NCBI GenBank assembly: GCA_020050685.1
Contig: JAGVKG010000032.1
Span: 1-43,904 of the forward strand
Length of the DNA: 43,904 nucleotides
Direction: 5' to 3'
From: Candidatus Obscuribacterales bacterium
Lineage (GTDB): Bacteria > Cyanobacteriota > Vampirovibrionia > Obscuribacterales > Obscuribacteraceae
In this document: in pieces, positions 30,403 to 34,592 of the stretch
How the letters are laid out: each line of letters opens with the position of its first letter
How positions within the stretch are numbered: position 1 is the first letter of the stretch
Made by a program: the position numbers and the translations under genes
The notes under the pieces: model-generated
The model's database searches: none
What the model saw: the letters and a program-made list of their open reading frames with translations, nothing else
Told to the model about the DNA's origin: nothing

Positions 30403-31719
30403 CTACAAAGAATGACCAGTAGTGGCAAACTGTGTCGGTTTTGTATCGCGACTTTCCAAGCGCTGAGCGAGATCGCGGTTCTGGGCAATTGCGGCCACGA
30501 CTTTATCAATCAACTTCTTGCCACCATTGCCATTCATGTGCGCGGTGTCACGAAAGTCGGACTTGTTAAACTCGGTTGTCGAGTTCAGGTCAACAAACGT
30601 CGAGCCAAATTCATGAGCTGCGACTTTTGCTGATTGCAAATAACGCTCGTAAAAAAGTGGCGGCATAAGCTGCATATTTTCTGGACGCAGTGGCATATTT
30701 ACTAGAACAACTGGAATATGGCGTGACGCTGCCAGAGCCAGGAACTTGCGTAAGAAGACCAATTGACGATTGAACATATCATGATGGTTGCCACGGAAGC
30801 GGGCGCGATATTCGCTGGAATTATCTTCGTACGGATGTGAATCGTTAGGATGAACAATAAACATGCCGGGTTCAATTTCCGGTTTGAGCTGACCAGCAAG
30901 GCCAGAACCGGTCGGGGCTACCGTTGCTAAATGATTTAGCGCGCTCTCGCGGTATAACTGAGAAAAATATGGACTGAGTGTCGTCTTTGTGTTTTCTGCA
31001 AGCACAGCTTGGAGATCCAATTTCTTGCCCCAAAGATAAAGCCCCTTGCCGGCCAAATAATCGAATCTTTGCCAGACTTGTGGCATGGATAGATCGACAA
31101 GATCATCAATATTGTCAAAGCGTTGAAGATAGCGGAAAGTATCGGTGGATGCAGGACATTGCATGTGGCTATCGATGAAGTCACGCAAAGTAAGACCAAG
31201 GACAATTGCTTTTGGTTTGCGATCGCCGTTAAACAATGCACGTGCCACCATGTAGTCATCGGAGATCATGCCGCCGGGTAAGGCAAAATTGAAACATTGT
31301 AGGGGCGAGGTTTCCTCGCCCTCAGCAGGGACATGCCCTCGATGAGGGCGGGGTAACCCCGCCCCTACGGATTGTTTTAGTGCATGTTCCATGTAATTAG
31401 AGCGATGGTGGTTCGTGGCATCAAGATCGCTTTTGAGAAAGTTCGCATCTTGCAAGCAGACGGGAATCATTACAAGCGATGATCCCAAAAGCACAACGTC
31501 CGGTGCGCTACTTTCTTTTTGACATTCTTGCAGATACTCTTGTGTTCCCCACCAAACCCAAGTGTGCGTTGATGGCAAACGTTCAGGGCTGATTTTGGCC
31601 AGCGGTTGCCAGGCAAGCAAGATCAGATTGACGAAAAGCAAAACCACCACGCCCAAAAATATCCGGCTAGAAATTAGCGTTTGCGAGCAATTCTTGATTG
31701 TTTGAATAAGCTCTTTCAT
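30403..31719 (-). CDS. SGNH-like protein, AlgJ/DltD-type acylation partner (copy B)
   Basis: 438 residues: one N-terminal membrane helix (about 20-38), then an exported SGNH-hydrolase-like domain. The nucleophile block is VVLLGSSL (about 76-82). A FNFALPGGMISDDY block follows, and the C-terminal DxxH motif is DTAH in FRDTAHMNGNGG. Proteins of this type finish acyl transfer started by MBOAT membrane acyltransferases. It is a tandem paralogue of the next gene and lies in the same operon as MBOAT. Residues about 118-141 are encoded by an inserted palindromic repeat and interrupt the domain in frame. The substrate is probably a surface polysaccharide, but this is inferred. Confidence 0.75.
   Translation of the reverse strand: MKELIQTIKNCSQTLISSRIFLGVVVLLFVNLILLAWQPLAKISPERLPSTHTWVWWGTQEYLQECQKESSAPDVVLLGSSLVMIPVCLQDANFLKSDLDATNHHRSNYMEHALKQSVGAGLPRPHRGHVPAEGEETSPLQCFNFALPGGMISDDYMVARALFNGDRKPKAIVLGLTLRDFIDSHMQCPASTDTFRYLQRFDNIDDLVDLSMPQVWQRFDYLAGKGLYLWGKKLDLQAVLAENTKTTLSPYFSQLYRESALNHLATVAPTGSGLAGQLKPEIEPGMFIVHPNDSHPYEDNSSEYRARFRGNHHDMFNRQLVFLRKFLALAASRHIPVVLVNMPLRPENMQLMPPLFYERYLQSAKVAAHEFGSTFVDLNSTTEFNKSDFRDTAHMNGNGGKKLIDKVVAAIAQNRDLAQRLESRDTKPTQFATTGHSL
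31299..31368. repeat. Palindromic GTAGGGGCG repeat inside copy B
   Basis: A 70-base element with GTAGGGGCG at one end and CGCCCCTAC at the other, entirely inside a coding region. Each arm also folds on itself: GGGCGAGG with CCTCGCCC (31303-31321), and GGGCGGGG with CCCCGCCC (31346-31364). Together with two flanking bases it adds 24 codons without breaking the frame, giving a VGAGLPRP-containing peptide. A second copy lies at the same place in the paralogue. Confidence 0.85.
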
Positions 31720-31745
31720 GTGGGCGTGAAAGTCCTGTCCTGTGT

Positions 31746-33023
31746 TTAAAGAGAATGCCCATGCCCTGCAAGCTGTGCGCCTTGGGGATCTTTTCTTTGC
31801 AAAGCAAAAGCAATTTCCTGATTGTTGGAGATTGCTTCAATCAACGAATCAACCAGCTTCTTGCCCCCATCCCCATTCATATGGGATGTGTCATAAAAAT
31901 CGGTGACCTGGAATTTGTCTTGCGCATTTAGATCGACAAAACCAGTCTGCCATTTCTGCGAACAATTTTGCAGAAGCTGGACATAGCGTTGATAATAGTT
32001 TGGTGGCATCAAGGCGAGGTTAGCTTTGGTCAGCGGCATATTGACTAAGATGACTTTAACATTGTCCTTCTTGGCCAAATCAAGAAGCCTCTCCAAGAAT
32101 TTCGTCTGATTAGCAAACAATGATTCATTGCCTTGACGGTAACGCTTGCGATATTCGCTTGAATTGTCTTCAAAAGAATATGGCTGATGCGACTTAACAA
32201 TGAACATGCCTTCTTCTACTTCTGCGCGTGCATTGCTTGGTAGATTGCGGGTTAAGTCTAGGCTGTTAAGCGCGCTCGGGTAAAAGATCTGGGTGGCAAA
32301 TGGTCCGCACAATCTCTTGGTGCTTTCTGCCAGAAGCACTTGCAAATCGAGCTTCTTACCCCAGAGGTAAATAGCCTTGCCTTGCCAGTAATCAAAGCGC
32401 TGGAAAATCTGCGGCATGGAAATATCGACAATGTCATCGACATTGCAAAAACGGTTGAGATAACGGAAAGCCGGAGTAGCGGCAGCGCAGTGAACGCCAT
32501 TATCAATAAAGTCGCGCAACGAAAGTCCGAGCACAATTACTTTTGGCTTGCGTTCGTTTGTAAATAGCGAACGATAGACGATGTAGTCATCCGAGACCAT
32601 GCCGCCGGGCAAGGCAAAATTGAAACATTGTAGGGGCGGGGTTACCCCGCCCTCGTCGCACACATGTCCTCGATTAGGGCGGGGTAACCCCGCCCCTACG
32701 CAATTCCGTTTCAAAGTTGTGGCAAGGCCATCAGCTAAATATTTCGAACTGTGATGGTGCACATAATCCAAATCTTTGTTCAAGTAATCAGCGTCCAAGC
32801 GTGAAACTGGATGCATTACCAAAGATGAGCCGAGTAAGACAACATCTGATGGTTCTTTCTGCTCGAGAAATTCTTGAGCTGCCCACCATACCCAGGTGTG
32901 CGCCGCCGGCAATGATTCCGGATCAACTTGTGTTAGCGGCTTTTCTTTCCATAGCCAAATATTGAAGGTAAGTAAAAGCAGCATGCCCCAAATAAAGGAC
33001 GAGCCAAGCAGACTCCTCATCAT
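31746..33023 (-). CDS. SGNH-like protein, AlgJ/DltD-type acylation partner (copy A)
   Basis: 425 residues, paralogous to the next gene downstream. One N-terminal membrane helix (about 8-26) is followed by the SGNH-like domain: VVLLGSSL at 61-68, CFNFALPGGMVSDDY at 133-147, a VILVNMPL strand near 324-331 and the DTSH motif (D378, H381). It lies 69 bases after the MBOAT gene and 26 before copy B, consistent with one transcript. Residues 109-132 come from an inserted palindromic repeat. An AAGGTGG site precedes ATG 33023; a second ATG follows directly. Two partners for a single MBOAT suggest two acceptors or a heterodimer. Confidence 0.77.
   Translation of the reverse strand: MMRSLLGSSFIWGMLLLLTFNIWLWKEKPLTQVDPESLPAAHTWVWWAAQEFLEQKEPSDVVLLGSSLVMHPVSRLDADYLNKDLDYVHHHSSKYLADGLATTLKRNCVGAGLPRPNRGHVCDEGGVTPPLQCFNFALPGGMVSDDYIVYRSLFTNERKPKVIVLGLSLRDFIDNGVHCAAATPAFRYLNRFCNVDDIVDISMPQIFQRFDYWQGKAIYLWGKKLDLQVLLAESTKRLCGPFATQIFYPSALNSLDLTRNLPSNARAEVEEGMFIVKSHQPYSFEDNSSEYRKRYRQGNESLFANQTKFLERLLDLAKKDNVKVILVNMPLTKANLALMPPNYYQRYVQLLQNCSQKWQTGFVDLNAQDKFQVTDFYDTSHMNGDGGKKLVDSLIEAISNNQEIAFALQRKDPQGAQLAGHGHSL
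32630..32699. repeat. Palindromic GTAGGGGCG repeat inside copy A
   Basis: A 70-base element whose outer 24 bases (32630-32653 and 32676-32699) are perfect inverted copies. Each arm also forms its own hairpin, for example GGGCGGGG (32634-32641) with CCCCGCCC (32645-32652). It sits in frame within the SGNH-like gene at the same codon position as the element in the paralogue, just before the conserved CFNFALPGG block. Confidence 0.88.
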
Positions 33024-33092: not shown

Positions 33093-34592
33093 CTAAAACT
33101 GGAAGTAAATGAAGCGCGGGGATGCATCTGGTGAAAAGATCATCAGCAAGCAAATTACGATTGCAACATAAGCAGCACGTGCCGGTATGGGCAGCTTGGC
33201 TAAAAACGGAACGCCCAGATCGTGTTCTCCGTCTTTGGTATTTTTGGTTTGCAGCCAGGAGTAGAATTGGCCGGCAAAAAGCAAAATCAAAATTAAAGGT
33301 AAGAGCATAAAGATGATTGGATCTTGGGTGGTCGGCAAACTGACAGCCAGGGCTGGTAATGCTTGATTGGCTTGCGGTAGAAAGAGCAACTTTTGAATAA
33401 TTGCCCAGGCACATTCAATAGTTTCTGCTCGGAAGAAAACCCAGCCGATGCAAACAACATGGAAAGTGAAGATGACTGAAAATACCTGAAATGCTTTCGT
33501 GGTACGCAGATTATTCAAAGGCGCAAATGCCGAAGCGATGCGTTGGAATTCCTTATGTAAAATCAGCATGATGCCTTGATAGGCTCCCCAGACAACAAAG
33601 TGCATTGATGCACCGTGCCAAAGTCCACCGAGCACCATTGTGATCAACAAATTGCGATAGTTGAAAATATTTGAGCCACGACTGCCGCCCAAAGGAATAA
33701 ACAAATAGTCGCGCAACCAAGAGGAAAGCGATATGTGCCAGCGGCGCCAGAAGTCGGATATTGAGGAAGCAAGGTAGGGCAAATTGAAGTTTGGCGGGAC
33801 GTAGTAGCCAAATAACGCAGCGGAGCCACGAGCGATGTCGGTGTATCCGGAAAAGTCAAAATAAATCTGGAAGGCGAATGCATAAACGGCTAGCCAAAGA
33901 TCTGCCGAGCTCAATAATTCCGGATGGTCAAATGCACTTTGAACAACAGTCGACAAATTGTCAGCAAATATGACTTTCTTGAACAGACCGAACAAGATCA
34001 GGTTTATGCCTTGATCGAAGTCAGCAACAGAAAGCTTCTTGTCATTAACCAATTGAGGAATGAAATTTTGATAGCGCTTAATCGGTCCGGCAATTTGTGT
34101 AGGGAAAAATGAAGCAAACAAAGCAAAGTCAATAAATGATTTGACCGGCTTGCTGCCACGGTAGATATCAACTACATAATGAATGAATTCAAAAACGAAA
34201 AAGGAAATTCCCAAGGGCAAAAGAATCTGGAAGGTAATTGGTGGCAAGGTTTTGCCAAACGGTGTGATCGCTTGGTTGATTAGATCATGCGTGAAATAAG
34301 CATATTTGAAATAAGCGAGCGTAATTAGATTCGCAGCCACAGCCAGTGCAAGCCAGGGCTTGGGCCCAAATCCGGCAAATGGTTTTTCCACTGATTTGTA
34401 AACTGCCCTGCCAAAGAAAAAGTTTGCCAGGGTCAAGCCAAAGATCAAAATGCCATAAATTGGCTTCCAGCTCATGTAGAAAACATAGCTGGCAATCAGC
34501 AAGAGTGGCGTGCGCAACTTTTGTGGACTAAGCCAGAAAAGAAAGACCACTACTGGAAGAAAAATCATGTAAGCGAAGCTGTTAAAAAGCAT
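33093..34592 (-). CDS. MBOAT family O-acyltransferase (AlgI/DltB-like)
   Basis: A 499-residue polytopic membrane acyltransferase with about ten hydrophobic helices. It has the AlgI-type core: GISFFVFEFIHYVVD, the FQIYFDFSGYTDIARG block, FWRRWHISLSSWLRDYLFIPLGG with H286, and catalytic H326 in GGLWHGAS. The family moves acyl groups, commonly acetyl, across the membrane onto polysaccharides or teichoic-type polymers. Two SGNH-like genes follow it, and a histidine kinase gene ends 10 bases before it. GGAGG lies upstream of ATG 34592. The operon layout implies a regulated surface-acylation system. The acceptor cannot be deduced because no polymer-synthesis genes are in the window. Confidence 0.92.
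   Translation of the reverse strand: MLFNSFAYMIFLPVVVFLFWLSPQKLRTPLLLIASYVFYMSWKPIYGILIFGLTLANFFFGRAVYKSVEKPFAGFGPKPWLALAVAANLITLAYFKYAYFTHDLINQAITPFGKTLPPITFQILLPLGISFFVFEFIHYVVDIYRGSKPVKSFIDFALFASFFPTQIAGPIKRYQNFIPQLVNDKKLSVADFDQGINLILFGLFKKVIFADNLSTVVQSAFDHPELLSSADLWLAVYAFAFQIYFDFSGYTDIARGSAALFGYYVPPNFNLPYLASSISDFWRRWHISLSSWLRDYLFIPLGGSRGSNIFNYRNLLITMVLGGLWHGASMHFVVWGAYQGIMLILHKEFQRIASAFAPLNNLRTTKAFQVFSVIFTFHVVCIGWVFFRAETIECAWAIIQKLLFLPQANQALPALAVSLPTTQDPIIFMLLPLILILLFAGQFYSWLQTKNTKDGEHDLGVPFLAKLPIPARAAYVAIVICLLMIFSPDASPRFIYFQF

Follow-up and report, generated by a model that had tools for sequence, protein, structure and literature searches.

Palindromic repeats tagged by GTAG, termed GTAG REPs, were treated by Di Nocera et al. 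in 2013, who listed 24 families and recorded them from Cyanobacteria, Chloroflexi, and others (PMC3733652). They form head-to-head dimers, in which the GTAG lies outside and the two units are separated by a spacer of 20-100 bp, their intragenic copies code for 20-30 amino acids, and the TAG of the GTAG can serve as the stop codon of a neighbouring gene, while REPtrons can be absent in species that bear REPs (PMC3733652). The classic case of palindromic repeats read in frame is that of the Rickettsia palindromic elements (RPEs; Ogata et al. 2000, 2002, cited via PMC10969869 and PMC3733652), which are either about 150 bp long or CGTC-tagged and reside in obligate intracellular bacteria.

Herein, we describe a stretch of 43,904 nucleotides (the window; contig JAGVKG010000032.1 of assembly GCA_020050685.1) from a Candidatus Obscuribacterales bacterium, in which two paralogous genes each harbor a palindromic insert. 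The repeat resembles the GTAG REPs of PMC3733652 in its GTAG-ended palindrome, head-to-head dimers, intragenic copies, and a TAG stop, which is here that of rarA; it differs from them in that no transposase gene was found in the host genome, in that the genes struck are mostly metabolic rather than devoted to DNA repair, and in the twin insertion at the same site of paralogues. Like the RPEs, it is a palindromic repeat that stands in frame inside numerous functional genes unrelated to one another (here about 12), mostly in a preferred reading. In contrast to them, it is made up of hairpins of 23 nt tagged by GTAG and of dimers of 70 bp, its host genome measures 4.2 Mb, and neither the CGTC tag, nor the RPE-1 sequence, nor a Rickettsia host is present, so that it behaves like an RPE yet is not one. 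With the REPtrons it shares the Group 3 type of REP, with 23 nt, a perfect 8-bp stem, and a 3-nt loop (PMC8266576, PMC2817692), and the layout of the hairpin equals that of the S. maltophilia REP (PMC8266576). The kind is already known from intragenic GTAG REPs and RPEs, and what is new is the host and the occurrence at the same site; we have seen no description of two old paralogues occupied at one homologous position, along with an unrelated gene having the same flank. Both inserts are very probably head-to-head dimers of a GTAG-type REP of the RAYT-associated kind, which entered the two genes at the same spot after their duplication.

Two palindromic elements in paralogous SGNH-like genes

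The genes, the elements, and their hairpins are located in the window as follows.

30403..31719, minus strand: gene 1, DUF1574/SGNH-like, 438 aa, with element 1; PF07611 at E 3.7e-5, below the Pfam cut-off
31746..33023, minus strand: gene 2, paralogue of gene 1, 425 aa, with element 2; PF07611 above the Pfam cut-off
31299..31368, minus strand: element 1, head-to-head REP dimer, 70 bp, translated VGAGLPRPHRGHVPAEGEETSPL(Q)
32630..32699, minus strand: element 2, head-to-head REP dimer, 70 bp, translated VGAGLPRPNRGHVCDEGGVTPPL(Q)
31299..31321, plus strand: REP hairpin of element 1, GTAG GGGCGAGG TTT CCTCGCCC
31346..31368, minus strand: REP hairpin of element 1, GTAG GGGCGGGG TTA CCCCGCCC
32630..32652, plus strand: REP hairpin of element 2, GTAG GGGCGGGG TTA CCCCGCCC
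32677..32699, minus strand: REP hairpin of element 2, GTAG GGGCGGGG TTA CCCCGCCC

Genes 1 and 2 show 53% identity, and their GSS and D-x-x-H-like motifs are compatible with an SGNH-like identity, a label taken over from an earlier, sequence-only reading of this DNA. The PDB yielded no sequence relative of gene 2, and a structure prediction for gene 2 made from the two window sequences failed (mean pLDDT 38). Directly upstream of both genes lies a gene for an MBOAT-like membrane protein (33093-34592, minus strand), and the combination of MBOAT-like and SGNH-like genes suggests a putative sugar O-acetylation cluster. The host genome contains about ten further paralogues of genes 1 and 2, several of them in tandem, all devoid of the insert.

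That the same palindromic repeat stands in frame at the same position of two paralogues, as the sequence-only reading had claimed, was borne out, since both palindromes (31299-31368 and 32630-32699) were recovered beyond chance. A search of the window for GTAGGGGCG returned 31299(+), 31360(-), 32630(+), and 32691(-), which are four matches versus 0.09 expected (no shuffle had four), and each pair makes up the ends of one 70-bp palindrome, the arms being complementary to 80% and 93%. Folding of the palindromes as single-stranded DNA gave z = -8.6 and -10.4, with no shuffle as stable, and the two elements are identical at 59 of 70 positions (84%). The in-frame gain in the two genes is VGAGLPRPHRGHVPAEGEETSPLQ and VGAGLPRPNRGHVCDEGGVTPPLQ, immediately N-terminal of CFNFALPGG, and both ORF translations agree with the proposed 24 codons directly before this block, which are composed of the 70 bp and two flanking bases. 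The 70-base unit held as a palindrome and gave way as a single repeat, because each element is a pair of genome-abundant 23-nt hairpins, arranged head-to-head so that each outer end carries GTAG, and separated by a spacer of 24 nt. All four hairpins are constructed of GTAG, an 8-bp stem, and a 3-nt loop, a short (near-)perfect palindrome with GTAG at one end, and translation of the hairpin in frame 1 gives the peptide VGAGLPRP. Rfam contained no match above the gathering score, the sub-threshold matches being to long-hairpin models only.

Copies in the host genome and their predicted translation

The host genome (4.2 Mb, 70 contigs, 98.7% complete) was surveyed by pattern searches together with the sequence stretches around the matches, which disclosed the further copies that the earlier reading had proposed to look for. 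GTAGGGGCG occurs 85 times, compared with 12 for the reversed control pattern, and the hairpins number about 64 (63-64), of which about 15 were judged intragenic, the dispersed copies thus being mostly intergenic. Once copies with the common TGTCATCC flank are excluded, pyrimidines occupy both positions before GTAG in 37 of 47 copies, versus 25% expected (p = 3e-14); this bias, as in the REPtrons, is compatible with joining at a preferred cleavage step, for example between C and T (PMC8266576). Four dimers with intact ends and GTAG outside were found, in both SGNH genes, in PurQ, and at the end of rarA, whose stop codon is provided by the TAG of the GTAG; the control pattern gave none.

A second common repeat, roughly TGTCATCCTGAGGAGCGAAGCGACGAAGGACCTCTCA, was also observed at six host loci and others. 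Many of its copies carry a GTAG hairpin in the middle, between TGTCATCC and CGACGAAGGA, and such a composite is read in frame in KsgA (L057).

About 15 hairpins would be translated inside about 12 host genes, a gene number that is approximate because the frames were assigned by eye without a gene finder, and open frames with the hairpin 5' of the likely start (e.g. L036, L059, and L034 near 4405) were excluded. Besides the SGNH pair, these genes are PurQ, ThrB, KsgA, QueA, MurT, and MetH, as well as those for a Y-family-polymerase-like protein, a group 1 glycosyltransferase, a MATE transporter, and an M16 peptidase, the names ThrB and MurT coming from solved relatives. The usual readings are VGAG(L/F/S)PRP or GGETPPLQ, and a stop closes the frame in which GTAG yields TAG. 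Aligned with solved relatives, KsgA and QueA each show a break at the repeat, where the query has about 40 extra residues, and the PurQ insert site is occupied by different, variable residues in relatives. The proposal of a protein-tolerated mobile repeat gains support from its absence in 29 relatives' genes, from its in-frame presence in about ten unrelated host genes, and from two of five dimers of other phyla that stand in frame in restriction-modification genes. A literature search gave no paper on VGAGLPRP and, for the DNA word, primer-type matches only.

Transposase genes and hairpins in other genomes

Neither a Y1 transposase nor a RAYT was found in the 98.7% complete host genome, so that the search for a transposase with matching ends, which had been advised, came back empty there, and it is in relatives that RAYT genes adjoin such hairpins. 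Among 53 genomes of the order, 11 gave a RAYT match. Inverted GTAG hairpins bracket the gene in the relatives G006, G051, and G019, and a single GTAG hairpin flanks it on one side in G005, all four relatives belonging to the same family as the host. Against NCBIfam REP_Tyr_transpos, the proteins of G005 and G006 reach E about 2e-22, and their scores fall half a bit short of the curated cut-off. RAYT genes bracketed by inverted GTAG-GGGCG hairpins recall the REPtrons, from which the host genome differs in that none was found in it. The stem flanking the G019 RAYT (L304) is different, being GGGGAGGGG-like (GGGAGGGG), and therefore only the general kind is common with the host hairpins, which suggests that divergence of the stem goes with divergence of the transposase. 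A search of eight further RAYT loci in relatives detected no GTAG hairpin.

Relatives within the order also possess dimers that share the GTAG-GGGCG foot and differ in their stems. The GGGCGRGG hairpin is present in 19 of 292 genomes sampled from the phylum. The frames of hairpins at other relatives' loci were mostly doubtful. In G005 (L142, L147, L151), nested units such as GTAGGGGCGGCT-GTAGGGGCGGCTCGAGAGCCGCCC were observed, which look as if one hairpin had inserted, or been copied, within another.

The strict dimer pattern was met in public genomes in five stretches titled Chloroflexi, Deltaproteobacteria, and Thermodesulfovibrionales, and it was not found in viral contigs. In a protein that bears an NPPY methylase motif, one dimer (L219) is in frame as VGARFPRPQGTTMQQGGGTPPLQ, and a second (L217) is in frame in another reading in an HsdS-like protein, both proteins being named from reading of the sequence, whereas at L215 the GTAG tag terminates a SurE-like frame. 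About 500 bases past the in-frame dimer, the L219 restriction-modification protein also contains STPPLQGGVTEGRGG and ATPPYQGGELRE, apparently a further repeat that is read in frame.

Origin and age of the twin insertions

According to the post-duplication entry proposed above, the GTAG-type REP would be a non-autonomous mobile hairpin of the kind linked to REP-associated tyrosine transposases (RAYT/TnpA-REP). Dimers would have entered the two SGNH-like genes, each at the same spot, when these were already distinct, and the mover would have been a RAYT that may since have been lost or is unassembled in the host genome. The dimers would persist because a dimer and two flanking bases amount to 72 nt, because the VGAG..PRP / ETPPLQ reading is stop-free, and because the peptide sits in a variable stretch before the conserved block, and the proteins with inserts presumably still work.

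Two other histories would spare the assumption of twin entry into separate genes. If the 24 residues were part of the native fold and the palindrome incidental, the stretch would be expected to be open and residue-similar in both paralogues, as it is; such a native protein loop was ruled out by the relatives' genes that could be aligned, 29 of 29 of which lack the insert, the residues having been looked for within the order and not found in any orthologue. The stretch is also missing from the other host paralogues, and the same DNA recurs in unrelated genes and in intergenic positions, which leaves this history practically no credence. Entry before the duplication with retention in both copies, one of two alternatives offered by the sequence-only reading, accounts for the same site in both genes, and forcing genes 1 and 2 together was not formally rejected by the AU test (p = 0.059). 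It is disfavoured by both trees built with the insert removed, where genes 1 and 2 remain unpaired and insert-free relatives stand around each (the exact placement of gene 1 is not the same in the two), and it requires repeated precise losses. Moreover, the elements are far more alike than the silent sites around them, since outside the insert, where both genes encode an identical residue by a degenerate codon, only 89 of 192 codons agree, compared with 59 of 70 element positions; we regard this entry as highly improbable. The same comparison indicates that the inserts are probably much younger than the gene duplication, unless constraint or correction between the copies maintains their likeness. 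The compared relatives, all of them outside the host genus, revealed neither a target-site duplication nor a precise empty site.

The question of why one site was used twice is sharpened by a 15-mer next to each element.

31282..31296, minus strand: TGTTTCAATTTTGCC (codons CFNFA), two bases off element 1, with the same spacing at the rarA dimer
32613..32627, minus strand: TGTTTCAATTTTGCC, two bases off element 2

In gene 1, gene 2, and rarA, the 15-mer stands two bases from the same element end. The closest insert-free SGNH orthologue (L095) has TGTTTCAATTTTGCT at the site, which matches the 15-mer at 14 bases; rarA genes devoid of the insert encode GFEGKI there, several with near-identical bases, so that most of the 15-mer is older than the insertion, although only about 12 of the 15 bases at rarA are callable as native. 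The second alternative of the sequence-only reading, targeting to the site, gains real but incomplete support from this common 15-mer, for which homology-guided copying could account as well. Were the dimer to favour TGTTTCAATTTTGCC-like DNA, the paralogues and rarA would have been struck independently at a largely pre-existing sequence, in keeping with the fact that three of the four exact 15-mers of the host genome abut an intact dimer, at the same end and distance, when intact dimers total four. This flank is nevertheless absent at the PurQ dimer and at single hairpins, the fourth exact copy is unoccupied, and the site choice of known RAYTs and IS200/IS605 elements extends to 2 to 5 bases, not 15 (PMC8266576); we consider such a preference somewhat less likely than not. 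Alternatively, conversion or template switching would have carried the dimer between the paralogues and either to or from rarA, with the common flank serving as anchor on one side and the other side joined irregularly. The elements of gene 1 and rarA are indeed identical across the 35 bases adjoining the common flank, and, of the first 20 comparable codons of genes 1 and 2, 15 agree to the right of the insert against 4 of 20 to the left and 46% overall. Yet this codon excess is not significant over all windows and is located in a conserved block, and the elements of genes 1 and 2 resemble each other less on the anchored side (26/35) than on the other (33/35), the reverse of what this account in its simple form predicts; we give copying of this sort a chance somewhat short of even. 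Target preference and sequence-guided copying each account for part of the junction data.

Implications

Although REPs were named as extragenic, they are read in frame here within genes for core enzymes of purine, threonine, and queuosine metabolism, rRNA methylation, and peptidoglycan synthesis, and the host lineage joins Rickettsia and the species listed in 2013 as a case of protein-coding REP-like repeats. It is a tentative and on balance unlikely idea that a specific sequence of about 15 nt is chosen by the REP dimer, or receives it by copying, and that two paralogue sites and an unrelated gene were thereby filled successively. If true, a selection of about 15 nt would make the spread of REPs sequence-directed far beyond the known dinucleotide cleavage choice. 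The twin insertions and the rarA junction provide three natural events for testing the target choice of REPs, and the RAYT genes of the relatives provide the enzyme.
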